The notes beneath the pieces are model-generated. The model was given only the letters and a program-made list of their open reading frames with translations. It was not told where the DNA came from and ran no database searches. Positions 2,930 to 26,253 of a stretch of 26,802 bases of DNA are shown one piece after another. The stretch is from a virus. Each line of letters starts with the position of its first letter. Positions within the stretch are counted from its first letter, which is position 1. The stretch is from positions 1-26,802 of IMG/VR virus record IMGVR_UViG_3300046794_000035; one strand, 5' to 3'. The position numbers and the translations under genes were made by a program.

Positions 2930-5221
2930 ATGTCAAAAATAACACTAAATAATACGGCATCGGGGTATAACCTTGCGGCTATTAATGCCAACTTTGACAA
3001 GATCGAAGACGCATTAAACAATGATGTTCTCTACCGGGATAATCCTCCCGGAGAGCCAAACCAGATGGATCAAACGCTGGATATGAACAGCCAGCGTATT
3101 ATCAACCTTCCTGAACCGATGGCTGATTCTGAACCGGCTAGATTCAAAGACCTCAAGGATTTCTCTCTCGGTAAGGTTAAGGCTTCCCTCGTCCCCTTCA
3201 CTCCGTATCTGGATGTCACTAGTACGAATGTACAAGATGCTATTCAGGAAGTGAAGGATGACATTATCTCCGGATTGGCATCAGAGGTAGCAGCACGGCA
3301 GGCAGCAGACAGCGTAATTGTAGATCGCGCTCTCTATCGGACTAATCCGGATGGTAAGCCTAATACGATGCTCATTCCTTTGGACATGGGTCTCAATAAG
3401 ATTACCAACCTTGCTGCTCCTACTACGTCCAATGATGCAGCCCGGATTGTAGACGTACAGAATGCTATTGCTGGTATTGCAACAGCTTCCACTACCCTGT
3501 TCTCTCCAATCACTCATGTGCCGTCTACGAATGTGCAGGGTGCTATTGCAGATGCAGTGGCTTACACGGATGCAGCAATTGCCCCTGTCAGCGCTTCTAT
3601 TACGTCTGTATCCAATACGCTCAATGCGGATATTGCCTCTCGGACGGTTTACAACATGAAGAAGTTGGGTGCAGTTGGAAATGGCGTTGCTGACGATACC
3701 GCAGTCATTCAAGCAGCCATCGCTACAGCTTCCGCTTCAGGGTTGTCCAGTGTTATCTACTTCCCCCGTGGGAACTATCGTATCTCTGGCACGCTCACGC
3801 TGAATGCACCCGGACTCATCTTGCAGGGTGAAGGTAGCACGGCTTCTGTGATTACGGCTCTGAACAATGTAGGAACCTTCACAGGCAATCCAGCAGCAAT
3901 GGTCGTGATGAATGGCAACAACTGTGCCGTAAGAAATCTAGCGATTGATGGGAATATCGCTAATAACACGGCTAGGTCTTTTTACGGCATCAGCAGCAAT
4001 GCAGCTGGTCTGAGTGGTCTTGCTATCGATAATTGTATTATCCAGAATGTGATTGGTAGTGGAATTGCCTTTGCTCCGGATACAGGAGTGAACTTCGATT
4101 TCCAGATTACCAATAACCGACTTGCTAATATCGGTTGGGCGGGTATGGAATTGTACAACACCATTGGTGGCTTGATTAGCGGCAACCGGATTGCTACAAC
4201 TGCGGCCCACGGTATTGTCACAGGCTACAACAGCAACAAGAGCAATTTCAATGTCTCGAATGCCAATCGTATCATCGGTAACTATGTGAATCGAAGCAGC
4301 CTTCCTACGGCTAACCTTGGGGGCCTTTCTACTCGTGGTTTTATGATTGCCGTAGGTGCTGGTGATGTTAATACGGTGATTGCTAACAACATCTGTTTCG
4401 ATAATCGTCTTGCGGGTGAAGATGGTATTGGCTTGGGTCAAGACGGTATCCGATATAACCAAGGCATCCTTGTCATTGGCAACGTGGTTCAGTTCGCTGG
4501 CTTGTTTGGCATTGATGCTACTACGGGCTCTACGATTCAAGATAACATTATTATCCAATCTACGCAGTGTGGTATCAAGGTGGGTACTGACGTAGGAGGT
4601 AACTGCACGGATTGTATTATCTCTAACAATCTCATCATCCAGCCTAACAACCCTACTGCATTCTGGCCTTCGGTACAAGACGCGGGGATTATTGTGTCTT
4701 CAGCATTCTCTTCGGGCATCTATGCTGGTATTAAGATTGTTGGGAATTCGGTGGTAGATAGTCGAGTGGGTGGGGCTAAGCTGACTAACTATGGTGTGGT
4801 TGTGGACTATAACGGTGTAACTTATTTCAATAATGAGTTTAGCCATAACAACTTCGGCAGCGTAAAACTTGGTGTGGCTTTCGCTAGTGGCTCTATTCCT
4901 TCTGGCGATTGCGGTTGGCGTTATCTGAACAATGTAGGCCCCATTGCTGTGCCACAAGTCACAGGAACAGTCCCCAATATCTTTGGTAACGACAATGTTT
5001 CAGTGAGTCATGCTGGTCCCACTACGGTGACAAACATGCTAGGTGGATTTAATGGGCAGGCTTTGGATGTTCAAATGAACACCAGTAACACTACTTGGCA
5101 ATTCAACAGCAATGCCGCTATGTATGGCAATGGCAATTCCAATCTTACTACCGCTGGTGGCAACTTCTTGCGCTTTAAGATGCATAACGGTGTGTGGGCA
5201 GGAGCGAGGACTGTATTTTGA
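2930..5221 (+). CDS. tail spike with pectate-lyase-like beta-helix
   Basis: This 763-residue spike probably binds and may cleave host surface polysaccharide. Residues 1-60 are the same anchor domain as in the fibre encoded just upstream. The region 34-108 is duplicated at 135-210 with a constant offset of 101 residues (LYR, PN, LDM, NL, AR and STNVQ.AI all recur). A K-L-G-A-V-G-N-G-V-A-D-D-T segment at 245-257 marks the entry to a right-handed parallel beta-helix of the pectate lyase 3 type. Many N-N-x-I/V turns follow to about residue 680. The last 80 residues look like a Gly/Asn-rich trimerisation or tip region. Catalytic residues cannot be assigned by eye. The ATG follows the preceding stop by two bases. 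Confidence 0.88.
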   Translation: MSKITLNNTASGYNLAAINANFDKIEDALNNDVLYRDNPPGEPNQMDQTLDMNSQRIINLPEPMADSEPARFKDLKDFSLGKVKASLVPFTPYLDVTSTNVQDAIQEVKDDIISGLASEVAARQAADSVIVDRALYRTNPDGKPNTMLIPLDMGLNKITNLAAPTTSNDAARIVDVQNAIAGIATASTTLFSPITHVPSTNVQGAIADAVAYTDAAIAPVSASITSVSNTLNADIASRTVYNMKKLGAVGNGVADDTAVIQAAIATASASGLSSVIYFPRGNYRISGTLTLNAPGLILQGEGSTASVITALNNVGTFTGNPAAMVVMNGNNCAVRNLAIDGNIANNTARSFYGISSNAAGLSGLAIDNCIIQNVIGSGIAFAPDTGVNFDFQITNNRLANIGWAGMELYNTIGGLISGNRIATTAAHGIVTGYNSNKSNFNVSNANRIIGNYVNRSSLPTANLGGLSTRGFMIAVGAGDVNTVIANNICFDNRLAGEDGIGLGQDGIRYNQGILVIGNVVQFAGLFGIDATTGSTIQDNIIIQSTQCGIKVGTDVGGNCTDCIISNNLIIQPNNPTAFWPSVQDAGIIVSSAFSSGIYAGIKIVGNSVVDSRVGGAKLTNYGVVVDYNGVTYFNNEFSHNNFGSVKLGVAFASGSIPSGDCGWRYLNNVGPIAVPQVTGTVPNIFGNDNVSVSHAGPTTVTNMLGGFNGQALDVQMNTSNTTWQFNSNAAMYGNGNSNLTTAGGNFLRFKMHNGVWAGARTVF

Positions 5222-5682
5222 TTAAAGCCAATAAATGGTTGGTTGGCCTAGCAGGAGCAGCCGTGCTTTCTACGGCGGCTGTTCTTGAAGGGTCCAAGAC
5301 CACTCCCTATTACGACATAGGAGGCATTCCAACGGTTTGTGATGGTCACACTGGCCCTGATGTCAAGATGGGTCAGCCGTGGTCACCAGCAGCCTGTAAA
5401 GCCGTCCTAGAGCGAGATTTCATCAAACACGGCAAAGGAATCCTTCAGTGTGTGAATGTCCCTCTGACAGAAAACCAATATAACGCCTTCACCCTCTTTG
5501 CATTCAATGTAGGAGTTGAAGCGTTCTGCACTAGTTCTACTGTACTGAAACCTCTTAATCAAGGCCGATATAATGAAGCCTGTGAGGGAATGTACAAATG
5601 GGTATATGTCAAGGGTAAATATATTGAAGGGCTATATAATCGCCGAAAGGTAGAGGTGGCAATGTGCAAAAGTATTTCTTAA
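5218..5682 (+). CDS. SAR endolysin, GH24 lysozyme (muramidase)
   Basis: This enzyme cleaves the glycan strands of peptidoglycan. I place the start at TTG 5218, overlapping the spike's TGA (TTGA), because GAGGA lies seven bases upstream; that gives 154 residues. A longer in-frame GTG at 5194 lies inside the spike gene and is less likely. Residues 7-23 form a Gly/Ala-rich, weakly hydrophobic segment, the signal-anchor-release type, so export and activation would not need a large-hole holin. The catalytic pattern E24-x8-D33-x5-T39 matches T4 lysozyme spacing, followed by VCDGHTG and a C-terminal GLYNRRKVE motif. Six cysteines (41, 60, 78, 104, 122, 150) suggest disulfides formed in the periplasm. 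Rz follows with an overlap. Confidence 0.93.
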   Translation: MIKANKWLVGLAGAAVLSTAAVLEGSKTTPYYDIGGIPTVCDGHTGPDVKMGQPWSPAACKAVLERDFIKHGKGILQCVNVPLTENQYNAFTLFAFNVGVEAFCTSSTVLKPLNQGRYNEACEGMYKWVYVKGKYIEGLYNRRKVEVAMCKSIS

Positions 5683-6128
5683 TCGCAGCACTCGTCCTCG
5701 GCCTATTAATCGGAGCTATTCCCACTTGGTTCTACTACAGTGGGAAACTCACTAAGCAAGAGGCTGATGCCATTGTGGCTACACAGGATTTGGAGAAGAA
5801 ACTAAATGTTAACAAAGCTCAGGCCGATTTCGAAAAGCAGTTCGCTGTTGCTGCTGCCAGCACTCAGCTTCAGTCTGTTATTGACAGCTTGCGGAACCGC
5901 CCAATGCGTCCTGCCACAGTTGCCAGTACTCAGCCCGCCTGCACAGGCTCCGGACTTTATCGGGACGACTCAGAATTTCTTGCAAGGCTCGCTGAAAGAG
6001 CAGAGCAAGTAAAGATAGAAAGGGATTACTACTATGGACAATATGAAGCCGCTCGAAGACTTCTTGCCGGAGAAAAGCAAGATGGTGGATTCGGTGGGCA
6101 GGTATCTAACCCAAAGCCTCTTCCTTGA
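5664..6128 (+). CDS. Rz: i-spanin, Rz-like
   Basis: This is the inner-membrane spanin subunit, 154 residues. It works with the lipoprotein Rz1 to fuse inner and outer membranes in the last lysis step. The start is a GTG at 5664 inside the end of the endolysin gene, with AGAGG seven bases upstream. Residues 5-25 form one N-terminal membrane helix. Residues 32-80 and 105-140 are charged, heptad-like helices separated by a Pro/Thr/Cys-containing hinge, as in Rz proteins. The gene fully contains Rz1 in the +1 frame and overlaps the start of the small terminase by 95 bases, so its C-terminal third is constrained by other reading frames. Confidence 0.85.
   Translation: MQKYFLIAALVLGLLIGAIPTWFYYSGKLTKQEADAIVATQDLEKKLNVNKAQADFEKQFAVAAASTQLQSVIDSLRNRPMRPATVASTQPACTGSGLYRDDSEFLARLAERAEQVKIERDYYYGQYEAARRLLAGEKQDGGFGGQVSNPKPLP
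5806..6012 (+). CDS. Rz1: o-spanin lipoprotein, Rz1-like, nested in Rz
   Basis: This 68-residue frame lies entirely inside Rz, in the +1 frame. It has a basic N-terminus, a hydrophobic stretch at 14-26 and a lipobox Leu26-Thr27-Ala28-Cys29. Signal peptidase II cleavage would leave a lipoprotein of 40 residues, Pro-rich near its start (LPQLPVLSPPAQAP). This is the classical Rz1 design, anchored in the outer membrane and pairing with Rz across the periplasm. A second cysteine (Cys34) could support disulfide dimers. The ATG has GGAGAAG about eight bases upstream. Its stop at 6010-6012 is 21 bases before the small terminase start, in the same frame. Confidence 0.88.
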   Translation: MLTKLRPISKSSSLLLLPALSFSLLLTACGTAQCVLPQLPVLSPPAQAPDFIGTTQNFLQGSLKEQSK

Positions 6129-6558: not shown

Positions 6559-8152
6559 TAACTGGCTAGAAGATGCTAAGAAGAAACTTTCTAGGATGCC
6601 AGATGATGCAAAGGAACTAAGAGAACTGGCTAAACAGGATTTGTTCTTCTTTGCTCGTCTGGTCAATCCGGGTTATATGTACGGTGAAGTGCATAAGGAA
6701 ATCTTCACTTGGCTACAAGAATATACGCTGTATGGGATGGATGACGATCTCACCAGCAACAAACTAATTATGCTTCCTCGTGCCCACCTGAAGAGCCATA
6801 TGGTGGCTACGTGGGCAGCTTGGATTATTACACGGCATCCGGAAGTGACCATTCTGTATGTTTCTGCAACTAGTGAACTGGCTGAAACCCAGCTTTATGC
6901 AATTCAGAATATCATTGGCTCGTCCACGTATTGCCGTTACTTCCCTGAATACATTAATCCGCAGGAGGGTAAACGTGAAAGATGGAGCCAACGCAAGTTC
7001 TCAATTGACCATGAAGTCCGTAAGACCGAAGGTATTCGGGATGCTACTGTATCCACCGCTGGCCTTACTACTAATACAACTGGTTGGCATGCTGACATCG
7101 TAATTGCAGATGACTTGGTAGTTCCTGAGAATGCTTATACGGAGGACGGACGTGAATCGGTATCTAAGAAAAGCTCTCAGTTCACTTCGATTAGAAATGC
7201 TGGTGGTTTTACTCTGGCCTGTGGCACTCGTTATCATCCTAATGATGTCTACTCTGTCTGGAAGTCGCAAGAATATGATGTCTACGATAACGAAGGAAAC
7301 ATAACTGACCGTCAAAAGGTCTGGGAGATTAAAGAATATGTTGTCGAGACAGATGGAATTTTTGTATGGCCTCGGGTTGTCCGACCTAAGGACGGTAAAG
7401 CTTTTGGTTTCGATCCTAGAGTTTTATCAAGAATCAAAGCTGAATACTCCGACCGTACTCAATTCTATTCGCAGTATTACAACGACCCAAATGATCCCGG
7501 ATCAAATCGAATCGGGCGAGATAAGTTTCAATATTACGACAGAAAGTTTCTAAAGCAGAACGATGGGTATTGGTACTTCAAGGGCAATCGCCTAAACATC
7601 TTCGCTTCAATCGACTTCGCATTCTCCCTCGGTAAGCGCTCGGACGATACAGCTATTGTCGTCATTGGTGTAGACGCTGACAACTATATCTACGTTCTCG
7701 ATATCGCCTGTTTCAAGACAGACAAGATTAGTGATTACTTCAAAGAGATTGCACGGCTACATAGCAAATGGGAGTTCAAGAAGCTCCGGGCTGAAGTGAC
7801 CGTAGCACAGACAGTGATTGTCCGAGATTTGAAGGATCGGCTCCGTGCTGAGGGGCTAAGCCTCTCTATTGATGAATACCGTCCTAATCGTACAGAGGGT
7901 TCCAAAGAGGAGCGGATTGCTGCTGCTCTTGAGCATCGCTATGAGAACCGAGAGATTTGGCACTGCATGGGTGGCTATACGGACGTTCTAGAGGAGCAGT
8001 TGATTCAAGCTAGACCAGCCCACGATGACATTAAGGATGCCCTTGCTGCGGCTGTAAGCATTGCTATTAAGCCTAAATCGAAAGGCCACAGCACGATTCG
8101 AGAGAACATTATACCAATAAGCTCCCGCTTCGGTGGCGTAGCTTTCAGATAG
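6551..8152 (+). CDS. terminase large subunit (ATPase-nuclease)
   Basis: This DNA-packaging motor subunit has 533 residues. The N-terminal ATPase contains a Walker A-like loop PRAHLKSH at 76-83, where Ala replaces the Gly usually found in PRGxxKS loops. A Walker B segment follows (DIVIADD at 182-188). The C-terminal RuvC-like nuclease shows Asp355 in ASIDFAF and the D-D-I-K-D cluster at 492-496 near the end, which together would bind the metal ions that cut DNA. The length is close to that of T7 gp19. The ATG overlaps the small subunit stop by eight bases, so the two subunits are probably made in a fixed ratio. Confidence 0.95.
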   Translation: MVDNWLEDAKKKLSRMPDDAKELRELAKQDLFFFARLVNPGYMYGEVHKEIFTWLQEYTLYGMDDDLTSNKLIMLPRAHLKSHMVATWAAWIITRHPEVTILYVSATSELAETQLYAIQNIIGSSTYCRYFPEYINPQEGKRERWSQRKFSIDHEVRKTEGIRDATVSTAGLTTNTTGWHADIVIADDLVVPENAYTEDGRESVSKKSSQFTSIRNAGGFTLACGTRYHPNDVYSVWKSQEYDVYDNEGNITDRQKVWEIKEYVVETDGIFVWPRVVRPKDGKAFGFDPRVLSRIKAEYSDRTQFYSQYYNDPNDPGSNRIGRDKFQYYDRKFLKQNDGYWYFKGNRLNIFASIDFAFSLGKRSDDTAIVVIGVDADNYIYVLDIACFKTDKISDYFKEIARLHSKWEFKKLRAEVTVAQTVIVRDLKDRLRAEGLSLSIDEYRPNRTEGSKEERIAAALEHRYENREIWHCMGGYTDVLEEQLIQARPAHDDIKDALAAAVSIAIKPKSKGHSTIRENIIPISSRFGGVAFR

Positions 8153-8160
8153 AGGAATAA

Positions 8161-9933
8161 ATGGCAAATCGCCCACTAAACATTTGCGAGGAAGGCAATC
8201 GAGATTATCTCGCTAAGTACATCTCGCAGACGTGGTTTAACTACCACACCCAGATGTTCCCGAAGATTCAGGAATGGAAAGAGCTTCGTGATTATGTCTT
8301 CGCTACGGATACGCGTACTACCAGTAACAGCGATCTGCCGTGGAAGAATAAGACGACGCTCCCCAAGCTCTGTCAGATTCGGGACAATCTACATTCGAAC
8401 TACCTCTCTGCCCTCTTCCCTAATGATGAGTGGCTTCGTTGGGAGGCTTATTCGCTGAATGACGCAACAAAGGCCAAGAAGACTGCAATCGAATCCTACA
8501 TGGGCAATAAGACTCGTGAGAGCCATTTCCGTACGGAGATGAGCCGATTGCTGTTGGATTATATTGACTACGGGAATGTATTCGTCACGGCAGACTTTGA
8601 AAGTTCCTATCGTGAGGATGCAATAGGAAATAAGGTGATTGATTATGTTGGACCCAAGGGTCGCAGAATTAGTCCTCTTGATATTGTCTTTAATCCACTT
8701 GCTAGTTCATTCAAAGATTCTTTCAAGATTGTACGAAGTCTTACTTCTATTGGCGAGTTAGCAAGCAAGGCCGATAGTAATCCAGATAATGCTTTCCTGA
8801 AGAATGCTTTGCAGAATCGAGAGAAGATTAAAAGCTATGCTTCAGCCTATGGCATTGAAGAGGCTGACAAGAGCGAAGGGATGATGCTGGACGGCTTTGG
8901 TAACTACTCTGAATATCTGGGTAGTGACTATGTAGAGGTGTTGACGTTCTACGGAGACATCTTCGATACGGAAAGCCGTGAACTAAAGAAGGGACGTCAG
9001 GTAACTATTATTGACCGTATGTGGGTGATTGATGACAAGCCTATTCCTAGCTGGCTGGGTCACGCTCCGATCTACCACGCAGGCTGGCGTATTCGTCCGG
9101 ATAACCTGTGGGCTATGGGGCCTCTGGATAATCTGGTTGGTATGCAATATCGGATTGACCACCTTGAGAACTTGAAGGCCGATGCAATGGACTTGGCTGT
9201 CCTGCCTCCTCTGGTCATTGCGGGTGAGGTGGAAGAGTTTCGCTATGCACCGGGTGAAGAGATTCACATTGATGAGAACGGCAGTGTCACAGAACTGGCT
9301 AAGAACGCTCAGTGGGTCATCCAATCGGACAATGCAATCAACATCCTTGAACAGCGTATGGAACAGTATGCAGGGGCTCCTCGTGAGGCTATGGGTATTC
9401 GTACTCCGGGTGAGAAAACTGCATTCGAGGTACAGACCCTTGAGAACGCAGCCAGCCGTATCTTCCAAGAGAAAATCAATACGTTTGAAATTGAGCTTCT
9501 TGAACCTCTGCTGAATGCGATGTTGGAAGTAGCACGGCGCAATCTGGACGGTGAAGATGTGATCCGAGTGATGGATAACGATCTGGGTGCTCAGCAGTTT
9601 ATCTCGATTACAAAGAACGACATTACCGCCAATGGTGTTCTGAGGCCAATAGGGGCTCGCCACTTCGCTGCTCAAGCGCAGTTGGTACAGAACCTTCAAG
9701 GCATCTTCAATGGCCCCATGATTCAAGCTGTGAGCCCTCACCTGTCTGGTATTGCGCTATCACGTTTGCTTGAGGATACGTTGAATCTCCAACGGTTTGC
9801 GTTGTTCCGTCCGAATGCAGCCGTATTCGAACAACAAGAAACTCAGCGATTGGTTAATTCCGCACAAGAGAACATCGGTACGGAGATGGGGATGAATCCT
9901 AATCAGGCACCTCCGGGGGTTCCTCCGCAATGA
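8161..9933 (+). CDS. portal (head-tail connector) protein
   Basis: This 590-residue protein corresponds in size, position and overall composition to the T7 gp8-like head-tail connector, the ring at the single vertex through which DNA enters and leaves. It starts eight bases after the large terminase stop, with GAGGA upstream. The N-terminal W-x-N-Y-H-T-Q and RDYVFATD region, the central beta-rich region with a WRIRPDNLWAMGPLDNLVG segment (about 304-322), and a helical C-terminal region (about 400-470, EALGIRTPGEKTAFEVQ-like) fit T7-type portals. The tail is Pro/Asn/Gln-rich. Its stop overlaps the next start (ATGA). Confidence 0.9.
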   Translation: MANRPLNICEEGNRDYLAKYISQTWFNYHTQMFPKIQEWKELRDYVFATDTRTTSNSDLPWKNKTTLPKLCQIRDNLHSNYLSALFPNDEWLRWEAYSLNDATKAKKTAIESYMGNKTRESHFRTEMSRLLLDYIDYGNVFVTADFESSYREDAIGNKVIDYVGPKGRRISPLDIVFNPLASSFKDSFKIVRSLTSIGELASKADSNPDNAFLKNALQNREKIKSYASAYGIEEADKSEGMMLDGFGNYSEYLGSDYVEVLTFYGDIFDTESRELKKGRQVTIIDRMWVIDDKPIPSWLGHAPIYHAGWRIRPDNLWAMGPLDNLVGMQYRIDHLENLKADAMDLAVLPPLVIAGEVEEFRYAPGEEIHIDENGSVTELAKNAQWVIQSDNAINILEQRMEQYAGAPREAMGIRTPGEKTAFEVQTLENAASRIFQEKINTFEIELLEPLLNAMLEVARRNLDGEDVIRVMDNDLGAQQFISITKNDITANGVLRPIGARHFAAQAQLVQNLQGIFNGPMIQAVSPHLSGIALSRLLEDTLNLQRFALFRPNAAVFEQQETQRLVNSAQENIGTEMGMNPNQAPPGVPPQ

Positions 9934-14420: not shown

Positions 14421-16698
14421 TGTAAATAACTTCATCGGAGGTTTGGTAACGGAAGCCAGCGTTCTGAACTTCCCGGCTAACGCCTCCGCTGATGAACAGA
14501 ATTTCGAGCTAGATAGAACTGGATTGCGTACCCGTCGGCTAGGTATGAACTTCGAACCTGACTTTGAGAATATTGTAGCTGGTCCTACATCGGTAGGCAT
14601 TGTCAGCGCCGGGTTTAATACCTTTCGATGGGAATCGGTTGGTGGTGATCCCAATACCAACTACGCTGTGATTCAAGTGGATCAGCGATTGAACTTCTTT
14701 GATTTGAGTAAGAACGCTATCACCGAAGGAGGGACAAATGGGGTGATGGACCTGACTGTATTCCCTGTCGGTGTACGGTATTCCTTCGCTTCGGTGGAAG
14801 GATATCTGGTAGTGGTGGCAGGAGCCGAGCAGTTTGCTATTATCTCTCGTAACTTCGTCGCCAACACCTTTGCACATGAATATGGACGTATCCTTGTTCG
14901 TGACGTATGGGGTGTTGAAGAGGTGCAGCAGCCTTTCTATGAGAATGACCCTACGGCTCGTTCTACTATCCCCGATCCGTTCCACTATTACAACCTTCAG
15001 AATCAATCTTGGGGCATCCCAAGGCAAAGCGCTACGAATGTCCAAGTAGACCCTATTACCTATTACGCCTCGGGAAATGCTGGATTGTTCCCTTCGTCAT
15101 CGGAACAGGTGTGGACAGGCTTGCAGTTTCAAGCAGTCGCTACGGGACAGCAGCCTTTCGAACGGATGTACACCAACCTCTATACGGAATCTCTAGGGGG
15201 TAAGTTGGACAGCGCCAAGGGCTATTACATCATTGATGCCCTCAGACGCGGTACAAGCCGTCAGGACGCCGCTCAGAATAATAAGACTAAGTACCCTGTG
15301 TGTAACGGTGCCGTGCCCGCCTTGGTAGATAGGACGGATTCTGGACCTAAGTGTACGACTGACTTTGCTGGACGAATCTGGTATTCAGGCTTTGAGGGTG
15401 TGGTGATTGGTGGAGACAAGCGCTCTCCTAATCTTAGCAACTATGTTTTCTTCTCTCAGCTTATCAAGAGCCGTAAGGAATTTGGGCTGTGCTACCAAGA
15501 TGGTGATCCTACTTCCCGTGAGGGCAGTGACATTGTAGCCACAGATGGTGGATTCATCCGTATCTCCGGTGCTCGTAATATCATCGCCATGCGCAACCTT
15601 CACACTCACCTTATCGTTATTGCTTCTAACGGAGTGTGGACGATTACCGGGGGTTCACAGGATTCCGGATTCGATGCTACCAATTACAAGGTTAGCCGTA
15701 TTTCTACCTTCGGTGGGCTGTCGGAGTCGTCTGTTATTGTGGCGGGTGACAATTGCTTCTATTGGAGTGAAGACGGCATCTACGCAGTGAGCAAGAACCA
15801 GTATGGGGACATGACGGTTGATTCCCTGTCCATTGGCACCATTCAGAGTTACTACGATTCGATCGGTGCCCTTTCTAGAGCCAATGCCTTCGGGGAGTAT
15901 GACCAACTGGCTAAGAAGCTACGTTGGACGTTTAAGACTGGAACACCGTTCTCTGCTGATTCGGCTACCACGGAGCTAATCTTTGATGTGACGCTAAAGG
16001 CGTGGACTAAGAATGCCATTATGAATCTAGCGGATAACAGTGTAGAGCTTATGGGTGTGTTCACTACGGCCAACTTTACACATTCGTTCATTGATGATTT
16101 GGTGTTTGCTGGTACAGATAATGTACTAACTCCAACAGACCAAGTGGTGATTCCTGCTGTCCAATTGGCTAATAATGTCCAAAGTCTCAGGTATTTGGCG
16201 GTACATATAGAAGGAGGCATTCCTTATTATACTGTGGCCTACTACAATGAAGCGACTTGGCTAGATTGGGTAAGCAAGGACGGTGTAGGTGTGGATGCCT
16301 TTGCATTCTGTTTGACTGGCGATTCTACCTTCGGCGATAGTGGTATGGAGAAACAAATCCCCTACCTCATTATGCATTTTGTCCGAACGGAGGAAGGTGT
16401 TAACTCTGACTTAACCCCTGCTCACCAATCAAGCTGCCTCATGAGAGGCCAATGGTCCTTCGCTAATAGCATAGTAAGTAATAAGTGGAGCCCACTTACT
16501 CAAGCCTATCGTTATCGTAAGGTTAGATATTCAGAATCCATTGCGGATACATTCGATACTGGATTCGAAGTGATTACAACCAGAAACAAACTCAGAGGCA
16601 GAGGCAAGGCATTTGCCCTGTACTTTGAAACTGAACCGGGTAAAGACCTTCAGATTCTTGGTTGGAATCTCACACTTAACGGAAATCAATTCACATGA
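14395..16698 (+). CDS. tail tubular protein B (gp12-like nozzle)
   Basis: This 767-residue protein corresponds to the T7 gp12-type nozzle of the short tail (794 aa in T7). I place the start at ATG 14395 because AAGGAG lies seven bases upstream (14382-14387). A longer frame opens at 14299, but its extra residues are just the overlapping small gene read in another frame. The N-terminus (NNFIGGLVTEASVLNFPANASADEQNFEL) is the conserved opening of this family, which continues with beta-propeller-like repeats such as WSEDGIYAVSKNQYGDM. Its stop overlaps the next start (ATGA). Confidence 0.92.
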   Translation: MAKPGQRSDVNNFIGGLVTEASVLNFPANASADEQNFELDRTGLRTRRLGMNFEPDFENIVAGPTSVGIVSAGFNTFRWESVGGDPNTNYAVIQVDQRLNFFDLSKNAITEGGTNGVMDLTVFPVGVRYSFASVEGYLVVVAGAEQFAIISRNFVANTFAHEYGRILVRDVWGVEEVQQPFYENDPTARSTIPDPFHYYNLQNQSWGIPRQSATNVQVDPITYYASGNAGLFPSSSEQVWTGLQFQAVATGQQPFERMYTNLYTESLGGKLDSAKGYYIIDALRRGTSRQDAAQNNKTKYPVCNGAVPALVDRTDSGPKCTTDFAGRIWYSGFEGVVIGGDKRSPNLSNYVFFSQLIKSRKEFGLCYQDGDPTSREGSDIVATDGGFIRISGARNIIAMRNLHTHLIVIASNGVWTITGGSQDSGFDATNYKVSRISTFGGLSESSVIVAGDNCFYWSEDGIYAVSKNQYGDMTVDSLSIGTIQSYYDSIGALSRANAFGEYDQLAKKLRWTFKTGTPFSADSATTELIFDVTLKAWTKNAIMNLADNSVELMGVFTTANFTHSFIDDLVFAGTDNVLTPTDQVVIPAVQLANNVQSLRYLAVHIEGGIPYYTVAYYNEATWLDWVSKDGVGVDAFAFCLTGDSTFGDSGMEKQIPYLIMHFVRTEEGVNSDLTPAHQSSCLMRGQWSFANSIVSNKWSPLTQAYRYRKVRYSESIADTFDTGFEVITTRNKLRGRGKAFALYFETEPGKDLQILGWNLTLNGNQFT

Positions 16699-17138
16699 TT
16701 AAAGAACTCCCGCTTGATCCGACCCTCTACGGATTACAAGATTTGTTTGAACAACATTTCGAAGAAGTATATCAGGGGGCTAATCCATTCCCCCCTAAAC
16801 CGGATATCGAAATGTACGGAAAGATGGAATCCGTAGGAATGGCTTTTGGATTGTTTGCGTATTACGAGGAAATCATTGTAGGGTATTCAGTGTGCTTCCT
16901 TGCTCCTAATATGCACTCGCGGGGGTTTCTCACATGCAATAACGATGTGCTGTTTGTTGATCCGCTGTTCAGAGATACGCCTTTGGGACTTCGTTTGATT
17001 AAAGAGACAGAGAAGAAAGCAAAAGAGAAAGGGGCTAGTATGATTGTTTGGAATACCCCTTTGAATACCAGTTTGGTTAAAATCCTGCCTCGTTTGGGAT
17101 ATAACTGTATAGAGGCAGTTCATGCTAAGGAGATTTAA
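16695..17138 (+). CDS. GNAT-like acetyltransferase, T7 gp13-like position
   Basis: This 147-residue protein has a GNAT-type core: an acidic N-terminal helix, a central beta hairpin (FGLFAYYEEIIVGYSVCFL), and a strand leading to the cofactor loop R93-D-T-P-L-G98-L-R-L. Then come a long basic helix (KETEKKAKEKGAS), a strand (MIVWNT) and a final ILPRLGYN segment. From family knowledge, T7 gp13 and related internal virion proteins belong to an acetyltransferase-like superfamily and sit after gp12, as here. The loop is close to the Q/R-x-x-G-x-G/A motif, so acetyl-CoA binding is possible, but a purely structural role is equally plausible. Confidence 0.78.
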   Translation: MIKELPLDPTLYGLQDLFEQHFEEVYQGANPFPPKPDIEMYGKMESVGMAFGLFAYYEEIIVGYSVCFLAPNMHSRGFLTCNNDVLFVDPLFRDTPLGLRLIKETEKKAKEKGASMIVWNTPLNTSLVKILPRLGYNCIEAVHAKEI

Positions 17139-17696
17139 ATGCCAGCAGCAGCATTAGTTGTTGCCGCTGTAGCTGCTGTTGCTTCCACTGCGGTATCAGT
17201 GGTATCAGGCAATAAAGCTAGAGCGCAGCAAAGGCACGCGCAGGACTTACAAGAGCAGAGTGCTAATGAGCAACGTGCTCAGAACGCTCAAGATAAAGCA
17301 GCAGCAGCTAGACAACAATATCGAGAAGAGCGAGTTCGTAGAGCCCGCATTATGCAGCAGTCGGAAGCTGGCGGTACGGAAGGTAGCTCAGGTGAATTGG
17401 GTGCATTAAGTGGCTTGGCTACTAATTACTCCGTAGCCTCTGGTGGCCTTCAAGGACGGTATGACCGTGGAGTGACAATTGGCAATCTGCAATCAGAAGC
17501 TAATAAGTCTATCTTCGGTGCTCAACAAACTCTCAGTCAAGGTCAAAGCTTGTCTTCGATCTTTAGTACGGTTGGTTCAATTGCTGGCTCGTTTGCCAGT
17601 TACGGAACTAAAGCTCCTACCGGAACTACCTCTCAGCCGGGACAAGCTGGTTACAACGCTAACAATGGTTTTGACAACCCTAGCAATTACGGATAA
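17139..17696 (+). CDS. internal virion protein, gp14-like
   Basis: This 185-residue protein matches T7 gp14 in size and position; gp14 forms part of the ejection channel in the host outer membrane. Residues 3-25 form an Ala/Val-rich hydrophobic helix. A long charged helix (about 26-75, rich in Gln, Ala and Arg) follows, then a Gly/Ser-rich region and a flexible Gly/Asn/Pro/Gln C-terminus. The ATG directly follows the preceding TAA. The family call is from layout, not from a motif. Confidence 0.72.
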   Translation: MPAAALVVAAVAAVASTAVSVVSGNKARAQQRHAQDLQEQSANEQRAQNAQDKAAAARQQYREERVRRARIMQQSEAGGTEGSSGELGALSGLATNYSVASGGLQGRYDRGVTIGNLQSEANKSIFGAQQTLSQGQSLSSIFSTVGSIAGSFASYGTKAPTGTTSQPGQAGYNANNGFDNPSNYG

Positions 17697-22834: not shown

Positions 22835-24628
22835 ATGGCTGATTTTAGTTCAGCCGCTACGGAGATTTCGGACTCGGGTGCGGGTTCGAATCCTGTGGTG
22901 GAACAGCGAGTGCCTTTCATCCCCAATCAAACTGCACAAGCATTTGCTCAGCTAGGACAAACTCTGGCTGAGGGGGTGAAGGGTTATTTGCATCAGAAAC
23001 AGGTAGACACACAGAATGCAGTTATTGGTCAGTATGCTCAGAAGCAAGCTGTGATTAACCAAGCGCTTGACCAAGGGACGATTAGCCCGCAAGAGGCCCA
23101 CGCACGTAGTAATGCACTCTCCAATGAATCAATTGCTGCCTATCCGGCACTGGCTGAACAGCTTGGTAAGGTGCATTCCGTATTCAAGGCTTCTACTTCT
23201 CTCGGTGATGCAGATGCTTCTTTCGATGCTACACAGAAACAAGCACAAGCAGTGAAGGCGCAACAAGATTCGATTGCTACTTCCCAAGGTTGGATTCTTC
23301 CTACGGACCCTAACGACCCTGCTCGTGACATCATTATCAATGCCTCACAAGCTTCTAAGAAGGCTGAAAGTGATTTGGCTCAGCAGAAGAGTCGTTGGGA
23401 CTTTGAGAATTCGAAGGGGATTGCTCAGGACCGTGTGCAAGATCGCGAGCGTAAGGAGCAGAGCAACCAGCTAGTTAATCAAATCTGGAATAGCCAATCT
23501 GATGGTATTTACGCTCAGTTGTCTACTCTCCGTGAACAGGCGCAGTCTGGAAAGATTACTTGGGAAGCTGCTCAGTTCTCGTTCCAGAAGATTCTAAGCG
23601 ATACGAACGGTGTTATCCAATCGGCTGCTGTACAGAATCCTGAACTGGCTACACCCTATCGTGGGCTGGTGGATGGGATTGGCACACTGGCTAAAACCTA
23701 TCTTGATCCGAGTAAGTCCGCTGAGGAAGCTGAGAACGCTTACAAGCTGTCGATTACGAACGGGAAGATTGCTGCCATTGCTGATCCTCAGGTTAGGGCA
23801 TTGGCTGTTACTTCGGCAATCCTTGGTGGTAATCAGCCTATCCTTCAGGCAACTAGCGCAACGGCTGTGGTGAATACGGTTACTCGTCTCACCAACACTA
23901 CGGTTAGCAATGGACAGGCTTCAGGGTTTGCTCCGCAAATGATTGGTAATCCGGAAGTGGAGAGCGATGCATTCAAGACTCTCAAAGCTGGTGTTGACAA
24001 CTTGAAGGGCGGAAAGATTAAGAACGCGGATCAAGCTGTACAAGAAGGTAGCAATATGACCAACAACATTCTTATCCAAACAGGTAAGGCTGTTGACTCT
24101 GGTAATGCTGCCATTCTTAAACCGGCTGCTGACTTCTTTGCTTCGTCACAGTTTCTCTATCTCCAACAGAAAGGACAGCTTGACCCTGCTTCGTTACAGG
24201 CAGCTAAGAAGACTTTCCAAGTGCTGTATGAGCCTGCTGTACGCCAGAGCATTGGAACGCAGATTAATACTAAGGTGAATGTCGGGGATCAGCCGGTAGA
24301 TGCCAATACGCTTATTGACGTAAAGATGGTGAATGGTGCTCCTACGTTTGTCCCCAAGGCCAACCTGAGTGCTGAAGCTGCTACGGCTGCTAACGCCAAG
24401 ATTAAGGGGTTGACGCAATACCAACAAGGTTTGAATACGGTAGTGCGGATTGGGGCACATATGGAAGGCACTAGTGATTATCAAAAGTATTGGGAAGATA
24501 ACAAATACGTTCTTCTCCCGCAACTCTATCCGGTTAAACCGGGCCAAGTGGTTGGTGGCTTTAAGTGGAGTGGTAATGGGGATTGGCGTGATAAGTCCAC
24601 ATGGTCAAAGGCAGGTGCAAATGGCTGA
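22835..24628 (+). CDS. internal virion protein, gp15-like
   Basis: This 597-residue, mostly helical protein is rich in Ala, Gln, Asn and Ser. It sits between the giant ejection protein and the transglycosylase. Residues 30-220 look like long amphipathic helices, and there is no membrane segment. It would take the place of T7 gp15 (747 aa), which forms the middle tube of the ejectosome, though the order relative to the largest protein is reversed here. No motif supports more than this. The ATG follows the preceding stop by three bases, with AAAGGA upstream, and the stop overlaps the next start by eight bases. Confidence 0.72.
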   Translation: MADFSSAATEISDSGAGSNPVVEQRVPFIPNQTAQAFAQLGQTLAEGVKGYLHQKQVDTQNAVIGQYAQKQAVINQALDQGTISPQEAHARSNALSNESIAAYPALAEQLGKVHSVFKASTSLGDADASFDATQKQAQAVKAQQDSIATSQGWILPTDPNDPARDIIINASQASKKAESDLAQQKSRWDFENSKGIAQDRVQDRERKEQSNQLVNQIWNSQSDGIYAQLSTLREQAQSGKITWEAAQFSFQKILSDTNGVIQSAAVQNPELATPYRGLVDGIGTLAKTYLDPSKSAEEAENAYKLSITNGKIAAIADPQVRALAVTSAILGGNQPILQATSATAVVNTVTRLTNTTVSNGQASGFAPQMIGNPEVESDAFKTLKAGVDNLKGGKIKNADQAVQEGSNMTNNILIQTGKAVDSGNAAILKPAADFFASSQFLYLQQKGQLDPASLQAAKKTFQVLYEPAVRQSIGTQINTKVNVGDQPVDANTLIDVKMVNGAPTFVPKANLSAEAATAANAKIKGLTQYQQGLNTVVRIGAHMEGTSDYQKYWEDNKYVLLPQLYPVKPGQVVGGFKWSGNGDWRDKSTWSKAGANG

Positions 24629-25991
24629 TGAAGCACAAACGCAAGAGCTTCCGGAGGATGGTCCGTGGAGCAAGGGATGGGCTGAAGTATCGAAGGCAGC
24701 AGGTAATTTCTCAGAAGCCGTGGAGACGGCAGTGTCCGGTGTTAAGGATGCTGTCTCTTCCATCAAACTTCCTTGGGAGAGCAGTGCTGACGAACTGGCT
24801 GCACAGACCAAGAACGTACGCCCTCCTCTCCCTGACTTGCCCAAGAGCCAGCAGAACGCTCCTATGGGCTTCCAGAGCCTCTTCAACAGGCTGGTGGATA
24901 CGGAGAGTGCAGGACAGCACACCAACGCCTCTGGCGGGCTTCTGACAAGCCCTAAGGGGGCTAAGGGGATTACGCAGGTGATGCCTAAGACAGCAGCTAA
25001 CCCCGGCTACGGTGTTACTCCTATTCAAGATAACTCCCCTCAAGAATATCTACGCTTCGGTAAGGATTATCTCTCGGCATTGATTAAGAACTACGGTGGA
25101 GATCAAACAAAGGCTGTCGCTGCTTATAACTACGGCCCCGGTGCTGTTGACCGTGCTGTAGCTAAGGCAGAGAAGAAAGGTGGTGACTGGCTGAGCTTCA
25201 CTCCTGCTGAGACGCAGAAGTATGTACAGAAGATATTGGGAAACGCCCTAGCGGTAGCAACCGGATCGTCTAACGCGAATGCTGCCGCTGACTTCTCCCC
25301 CTACCTCGCTGCAAATAAGACGGAAACAGGCAAGACGTATGACGGTGGCAATTGGAACACCCAGACTAACGCTTACGGTAATGCGGCTGTAGACATCATT
25401 AAGAAAGACTTCCCAGATCACATTGACGCAATAAACACGAAGATTACCGCTAACAAAGCCTCTGAGGGAGCAGCAGCTTCTTTCGGCGGAGCACAAGGTG
25501 ATGTAATCAACATGGGGAATGTGGGAGGCAGTGACACTACTTGGACGGATAAGAATGGTAAGCCTTCTAAATCCAATCGTCCTCTTGATGTGAATAAGAG
25601 GAATGAGGTGTTGGCTACGATGCTTCACGAAGTACAGCACGCCCGTATGGACCAAGTTAATTCGTTCAACGCTGGCCTTGGTGATAAGTGGCACACCATG
25701 CTTGATGAAGCTGCTAAGGCTGGCTTCCCTAGCGTACAAGAGGGCATTGCATATAACAACGGCGATTCTCTGAATGAGTTCCTTGCTACGGCTACAACGA
25801 TTAAAGAGATGCAGCGTAAGGGGTATGAACCTACTGGCCGGTATGCAGAACCAGCAGCAGCCCTACCTAAGATGGAAGCTAAATATCCTTGGCTGAAGCA
25901 ATACATCATTAACTACATCTATCCGGAAGCTGAAGCTACCGCTAAGAATAAGACTCAAGTACAAAAAGAAAGGAAGAATCCTAATGGCTAA
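24621..25991 (+). CDS. virion lytic transglycosylase fused to zincin-like metallopeptidase domain
   Basis: I start this 456-residue protein at ATG 24621, eight bases inside the preceding gene, with AGGTG just upstream; a longer frame from 24450 runs inside the upstream gene and is unlikely. Residues about 82-200 are a soluble lytic transglycosylase domain: the catalytic Glu95 in DTESAG, then KGITQVMPKTA and AVAAYNYGPGAV. It would open the peptidoglycan for DNA entry. Residues about 225-440 hold a second domain with H336-E337-V-Q-H340 and a later Glu386 in NEFLATA, the layout of an HExxH zinc peptidase. The C-terminus is Lys-rich. The two domains together suggest cell-wall or virion-protein processing during infection. 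Confidence 0.88.
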   Translation: MADEAQTQELPEDGPWSKGWAEVSKAAGNFSEAVETAVSGVKDAVSSIKLPWESSADELAAQTKNVRPPLPDLPKSQQNAPMGFQSLFNRLVDTESAGQHTNASGGLLTSPKGAKGITQVMPKTAANPGYGVTPIQDNSPQEYLRFGKDYLSALIKNYGGDQTKAVAAYNYGPGAVDRAVAKAEKKGGDWLSFTPAETQKYVQKILGNALAVATGSSNANAAADFSPYLAANKTETGKTYDGGNWNTQTNAYGNAAVDIIKKDFPDHIDAINTKITANKASEGAAASFGGAQGDVINMGNVGGSDTTWTDKNGKPSKSNRPLDVNKRNEVLATMLHEVQHARMDQVNSFNAGLGDKWHTMLDEAAKAGFPSVQEGIAYNNGDSLNEFLATATTIKEMQRKGYEPTGRYAEPAAALPKMEAKYPWLKQYIINYIYPEAEATAKNKTQVQKERKNPNG

Positions 25992-26253
25992 GAAGGGGCA
26001 ATTGAAGGCTAACGCTACAGCGGATAGCAAGAGACAGCGGGCGTACAATAGTTCGCCACAACAGAAGAAGCGACGTGCAGAGCGTAATGCAGCACGCGCC
26101 AAGATGGTGAAAGCTGGTAAGGCACATAAAGGCGATGGCCGTGACGTCGATCACGTCAACATGAATACGGCTAACAACTCTACGAAGAATCTACAGGTTA
26201 TCTCTGCATCTAAGAATCGTGCTAAGAACAAACACCATTTGAAGGGAAAGTAA
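25984..26253 (+). CDS. HNH-like small nuclease candidate
   Basis: This 89-residue, strongly basic protein is of a type often seen in podoviruses. The N-terminal half is a Lys/Arg-rich helix (KRQRAYNSSPQQKKRRAERN). The C-terminal half has an HNH-like pattern, G-D-G-R-D-V-D56-H57, then NNSTKNLQVIS with Asn69 and ASKNR with Asn78. In many relatives the first pair is HH or DH, so the metal site may be intact, but the final histidine is uncertain. A role in cutting DNA during packaging or in structural DNA binding is possible. It overlaps the preceding gene by eight bases. Confidence 0.72.
   Translation: MAKKGQLKANATADSKRQRAYNSSPQQKKRRAERNAARAKMVKAGKAHKGDGRDVDHVNMNTANNSTKNLQVISASKNRAKNKHHLKGK

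Follow-up and report, generated by a model that had tools for sequence, protein, structure and literature searches.

What would a phage transglycosylase do with a metallopeptidase-like domain attached to its C-terminus? This question is raised by a gene in a 26.8 kb virus record (referred to here as the window, meaning the whole stretch of DNA that was analysed), which contains a late region like that of Zobellviridae podoviruses, with genes for terminase, portal, scaffold-like, capsid and tail proteins, a gp14-like protein, proteins similar to internal virion proteins D and C (IVP-D and IVP-C), the fusion protein itself and an HNH-like ORF (Table 1). Ejected phage proteins contain many zincin domains, most of them within giant multidomain proteins, which makes their targets difficult to study. 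The window fusion is compact, with two domains in 456 aa, and has natural relatives that lack just the candidate zincin domain. If it is ejected together with its transglycosylase partner, the protease would act in the periplasm, where there are fewer candidate substrates, and the question would become testable.

Table 1. Positions in the window of the fusion gene, its domains and motifs, and the neighbouring genes discussed in the text.
Feature	Coordinates	Strand	Basis
GH24 phage lysozyme with N-terminal hydrophobic SAR-like stretch, likely lysis endolysin	5194..5682	+	Pfam PF00959, E 2.3e-36
Rz-like candidate spanin beside lysozyme	5664..6128	+	Position and N-terminal hydrophobic stretch only
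T7 gp14-like internal virion protein	17139..17696	+	Pfam PF24072 T7_gp14, E 2.2e-6
Large IVP-D-like protein, 1708 aa	17705..22831	+	PHROG 18427; relatives annotated internal virion protein D
IVP-C-like protein, 597 aa, directly upstream, 8-base overlap with fusion gene	22835..24628	+	PHROG 18587, E 4.1e-24; relative annotated IVP-C-like
SLT transglycosylase-HExxH fusion protein P0001, 456 aa	24621..25991	+	Translation; same architecture in homologues
SLT lytic transglycosylase domain, residues ~78-210 (catalytic Glu95, 24903-24905)	24852..25250	+	Pfam PF01464; invariant motifs
C-terminal domain, candidate zincin metallopeptidase, residues 209-456	25245..25988	+	Homologues; model; VIA-align Z 5.5 to PPEP-2
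HEVQH motif, residues 336-340	25626..25640	+	Invariant as HE[VI]QHARM in 4 records
NEFLATATT with Glu386, candidate third zinc ligand	25773..25799	+	Invariant block; helix in model
HNH endonuclease-like ORF, directly downstream, overlaps stop of fusion gene	25984..26253	+	Pfam HNH_3, E 2e-5, just below cut-off

The fusion ORF translates without interruption, and residues 78-187 of the product match Pfam PF01464 (E 2.2e-15, 56.7 bits against a cut-off of 21.3). The same SLT-HExxH fusion was found in three more IMG/VR records, representing two further lineages, through neighbouring genes and motif scans, and the motifs TES (T94, E95, S96), GITQ (G116, I117, T118, Q119) and AYN (A168, Y169, N170) are invariant across the four records. 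The N-terminal part is thus a genuine SLT lytic transglycosylase domain, and the transglycosylase core with Glu95 recognized in the preliminary description of this DNA is borne out, as is the presence in the translation of the HEVQH motif and of Glu386, the latter lying within LNEFLA. A linker rich in Gly, Ser, Asn and Ala (residues ~209-245) separates the SLT domain from the C-terminal domain.

Full-length identity to the window protein is 76% for L004/L046 and 61-62% for L222/L240 and L226/L241; L222 and L226 are almost identical in the fusion gene, so that the distinct lineages with the fusion number three, the window included. Within this range of divergence, HE[VI]QHARM and LNEFLATATTIKEMQRKGY are invariant in the window, L046, L222 and L226, as is the block that holds Glu386 (NGDxLNEFLATATTIKEMQRKGY), and HE[VI]QH is kept in every record that has the C-terminal domain. 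Wherever dS could be estimated in the C-terminal regions, dN/dS is ~0.1-0.25. The C-terminal domain is under purifying selection and, being conserved with a low dN/dS, is a maintained protein domain rather than read-through. Between the window and L226, identity is 65% in this domain, 57% in the SLT region and 41% in IVP-C.

The motif itself is unlikely to be a product of composition. The fusion protein has just five His, HExxH arises in only 0.23% of 20,000 residue-shuffled versions of it, and HEVQH is the sole HExxH among the ~8,600 residues of protein predicted from the window. H358, the only His downstream of HEVQH, is not conserved, unlike Glu386. By this pattern, the site would be of the gluzincin type, with His336, His340 and Glu386 as ligands and Glu337 as the general base; zinc binding, proteolysis and the substrate are predictions from sequence and model.

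Structure prediction is consistent with this assignment. Whereas full-length single-sequence AlphaFold gave no usable model of the fusion protein (pLDDT 44.5), AlphaFold on four sequences of the C-terminal domain, a shallow alignment, gave a model with pLDDT 53.7 and pTM 0.58 that is better around the motif helices. HEVQH lies in a long helix (model residues 116-135); the following long helix that is well predicted (173-191, equivalent to residues 381-399 of the protein) carries Glu386, and a short helix separates the two in this low-confidence model. This order of helices is that described for the zincin-like core (PMC5512222). A Foldseek search of the model against the PDB and the BFVD viral models returned no significant match. 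In a VIA-align comparison confined to Foldseek's best 347 chains, the top row was the zincin Pro-Pro endopeptidase PPEP-2 (PDB 6fpc), with Z 5.5, rmsd 4.1 and 14% identity over 132 residues, where a Z below 8 may reflect a common arrangement; the next row, an unrelated structure, had Z 2.7. PPEP-2 is a secreted bacterial protease rather than a phage protein and has no profile sequence match to the C-terminal domain. Hence, the structural match gives modest support for a zincin and is not proof. The candidate zincin of the preliminary description nevertheless gains from these analyses, since the motif and Glu386 are invariant and the only notable structural neighbour is a zincin; its fold test came out in favour as to the identity of that neighbour and weak as to the model and the Foldseek result, while both motifs are kept in the three further records and HExxH does not vary.

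It could be argued that the HExxH domain is an inactive structural or binding module, in which the motif is incidental or degenerate, as there is no family match, the model has low confidence and Foldseek found nothing significant. We regard this as quite unlikely given the rarity of HExxH in shuffled proteins, the invariance of the motif and the Glu386 block while the rest of the domain varies, and the structural match to a zincin.

Family searches place the domain outside the named families covered. The C-terminal domain, alone and as an alignment, has no above-threshold match in Pfam, NCBIfam, PHROG or PDB sequences; tblastn against 50,697 phage records returned nothing at E up to 10, matches among plasmids were chance matches only, and two scans of genome contigs yielded no relative. 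The best Pfam match is SprT-like PF10263 (E 0.04-0.05, 13.9 bits against a cut-off of 25.6), to which the HExxH region aligns weakly. Membership of that family was rejected because the match is below the cut-off and the window domain has a conserved Glu386 and no conserved third, downstream His.

Motif scans were also used to look beyond the close homologues. A scan for TxLHExQHA recovered many zincins of polyvalent proteins, but here the resemblance is the selecting motif itself, and these were set aside. A second pattern, HExxHA followed after ~35-50 residues by [ND]EFxA, was designed on the window fusion protein and matched 108 stretches in viral contigs, including two true new homologues, against a chance expectation of roughly one or two as estimated by base counting. 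Nearly all of the stretches are in frame in long ORFs, some of them in polyvalent proteins with LPD39 domains. Pfam searches of nine stretches identified LPD39 in two (one below the cut-off) and MuF together with a sub-threshold putative metallopeptidase in one. One 739-aa protein (L223:693-2909) carries a Phage_Mu_F domain, a C-terminal HExxH-DEFLAE region and a sub-threshold Peptidase_Mx match. The combination of HExxHA and [ND]EFxA is a recurring zincin-like signature in phage sequences. When the motif residues were masked, no profile similarity was left between the C-terminal domain and either the polyvalent-protein zincins or the other scan stretches, and an unmasked profile comparison with the polyvalent-protein MPTase aligned the motif regions only; in both cases, the query profile is very shallow.

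Zincin-like domains joined to lysozyme or transglycosylase domains were described in phage polyvalent proteins in 2017 (Iyer et al., PMC5512222), and the novelty implied by the preliminary description therefore does not extend to this kind of fusion. The MPTase domains of those proteins resemble the window domain, as modelled, in having an HExxH helix followed by a second, Glu-bearing helix, in being joined to a peptidoglycan-cleaving domain and, in phages, in probably being delivered at entry; the window protein likewise joins a candidate zincin to another putative entry domain (SLT) in one polypeptide. The polyvalent proteins differ in being giant and multidomain, whereas the window fusion has two domains in a compact form and is encoded beside internal virion proteins. 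On the profile evidence, we do not claim the window domain as a member of the polyvalent-protein MPTase family. What appears new is a domain outside the named families, its compact two-domain form in a podovirus internal virion protein cluster and its pattern of presence and absence.

The gene neighbourhood bears on whether the protein acts at entry or at lysis. In T7, the transglycosylase domain of gp16 has a role in entry (PMC11440229), and T7 gp16 is among the weak PDB sequence matches. In both phages, the internal virion protein cluster includes an SLT-type domain, and its role at entry is likely the same. The T7 domain forms the start of a large internal virion protein, while the window SLT domain is encoded by a separate gene following those for the gp14-like and large internal virion proteins, and the contrast with T7 drawn in the preliminary description holds. 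T7 gp16 is not known to have an HExxH extension. The 1708-aa IVP-D-like protein has no Pfam match and no detectable SLT domain. The SLT gene comes after the IVP-C gene in the window and in four relatives (G004, G005, G006 and PQ867852). Each of these genomes also encodes a separate lysis enzyme: the window has its GH24 lysozyme, G004, G005 and G006 have one SLT and one GH24 protein each, and PQ867852 has one SLT protein along with an annotated amidase and an Rz-like spanin. Because of this separate enzyme in each genome and the lack of a detectable SLT domain in the IVP-D-like protein, the fusion SLT is likely an entry enzyme. The fusion is probably an ejected protein, and its earlier designation as a virion protein agrees with the gene context, from which we infer that location, but is not written in the sequence itself.

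Annotation of other Zobellviridae suggests instead that the fusion could be a second lysis endolysin. The gene that follows IVP-C in CVT22, O4 and Pecta carries an endolysin annotation or lies within a lysis cassette, and the SLT protein of RIO-1 is annotated as a putative endolysin. The CVT22 and O4 genes are not, however, recognisably homologous to the window SLT gene (12-27% identity in uninformative alignments), the window and the four relatives have their separate lysis enzyme, and no holin or spanin was found adjoining the window SLT gene, all of which makes a second endolysin unlikely. The lysozyme and Rz-like pair of the window (the latter ORF without a spanin family match) lies between the tail fibre/spike and terminase genes, far from the post-IVP-C slot that holds the lysis cassette in other Zobellviridae.

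Taken with the domain analysis, this context leads us to lean, somewhat, towards the fusion being an ejected entry enzyme of a Zobellviridae-like podovirus, with a C-terminal gluzincin-type protease that rides along and cleaves a protein in the periplasm. The fusion would be ejected with the internal virion proteins, and its SLT domain would locally open the peptidoglycan, which is the job of the SLT domain in T7 gp16. The zincin domain would reach the periplasm joined to the transglycosylase; the protease is placed there because the SLT domain must act there and the two are covalently linked. Its target may be a host protein of the envelope or periplasm that obstructs DNA entry or the channel used for ejection; an ejection protein is a less likely target.

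Phage phi29 gp13 consists of two domains, one glycan-cutting and one a metallopeptidase, and resembles the window fusion as an entry protein in which such domains are paired. It is a tail-associated peptidoglycan hydrolase with D,D-endopeptidase activity (PMC9662197). By analogy, the HExxH domain could cut peptide stems or cross-links as part of a bifunctional wall enzyme, a reading that suits the glycan-strand enzyme to which it is joined. The gp13 peptidase is, however, of the M23 (LytM) type with an H(x)nD motif (PMC9662197), while the window fusion has HExxH with a distant Glu, and Pfam searches of the fusion protein found no M23, M15 or NlpC/P60 match. As phage wall endopeptidases such as that of gp13 belong to M23 rather than to the HExxH zincins, and the only structural neighbour, PPEP-2, is a protein endopeptidase, peptide-stem cutting, which had been put forward from the first inspection of this DNA, is the least likely substrate, and a wall endopeptidase is improbable.

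The main rival to cleavage of a host protein is self-processing, in which the zincin would cut either the fusion itself or the large internal virion proteins at assembly or ejection, freeing the SLT domain. Autoprocessing has been argued for related polyvalent architectures such as P1 DdrB (PMC5512222), the linker rich in Gly, Ser, Asn and Ala parts the two domains, and two relatives, L002 and L003, cleanly lack the entire extension and have a bare SLT protein. Yet self-release alone gives no reason to retain the domain, since these relatives manage without it, and the zincin domain is one of the more conserved segments of the module in the window and L226. On balance, self-processing seems unlikely, and cleavage of a host protein remains the reading that we follow.

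The relatives also suggest how the domain has been gained or lost. Gene order in L002 and L003 matches that of the window, with 64% identity in a neighbouring protein, and their SLT protein stops at the end of the SLT domain; short SLT proteins are also encoded by L005 and by PQ867852, a Zobellviridae reference. No zincin domain was found elsewhere in L002, L003, L005 or three Zobellviridae reference genomes, an empty answer that on its own proves little. Because the close relatives L002 and L003 lack it, the zincin domain is accessory. In the IVP-C tree, L002 and L003 nest with the window and L004 inside the domain-bearing clade (91% support), with L222 and L226 branching outside. The simplest history is one in which the zincin domain was ancestral to these phages and was then lost or replaced in L002 and L003. 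L240 and L241 differ by 2 mismatches in 1,540 positions, over a stretch of L240 (7347-8886) that corresponds to the fusion gene (7362-8753), while the flanks of this 1.54 kb tract are mostly 55-93% identical. The two phages seem to have exchanged the gene recently, unless the tract reflects an assembly artefact or a chimera. Some relatives dispense with the zincin domain, but it is well conserved where present and may travel with its gene, which suggests that it serves an accessory function directed at a variable target and is not a required step of maturation. A bolder version, which we offer tentatively and consider rather doubtful, is that this unnamed zincin family serves as an optional warhead on the podovirus entry transglycosylase and destroys a host envelope protein, with the whole gene being exchanged as a unit.

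Small HNH or endonuclease-type ORFs occupy the slot downstream of the SLT gene in L002, L004, L005, L226 and several reference phages, as in the window, and could help gene exchange at that slot. Elsewhere in the window, two adjacent tail fibre/spike-like proteins (1524-2927 and 2930-5221) share an N-terminal stretch (PHROG 17462) and differ in their C-terminal parts. A GNAT acetyltransferase-like ORF (16695-17138; Pfam Acetyltransf_1, E 1.9e-5) lies within the structural block, and PQ867852 has a GNAT gene at the same place.
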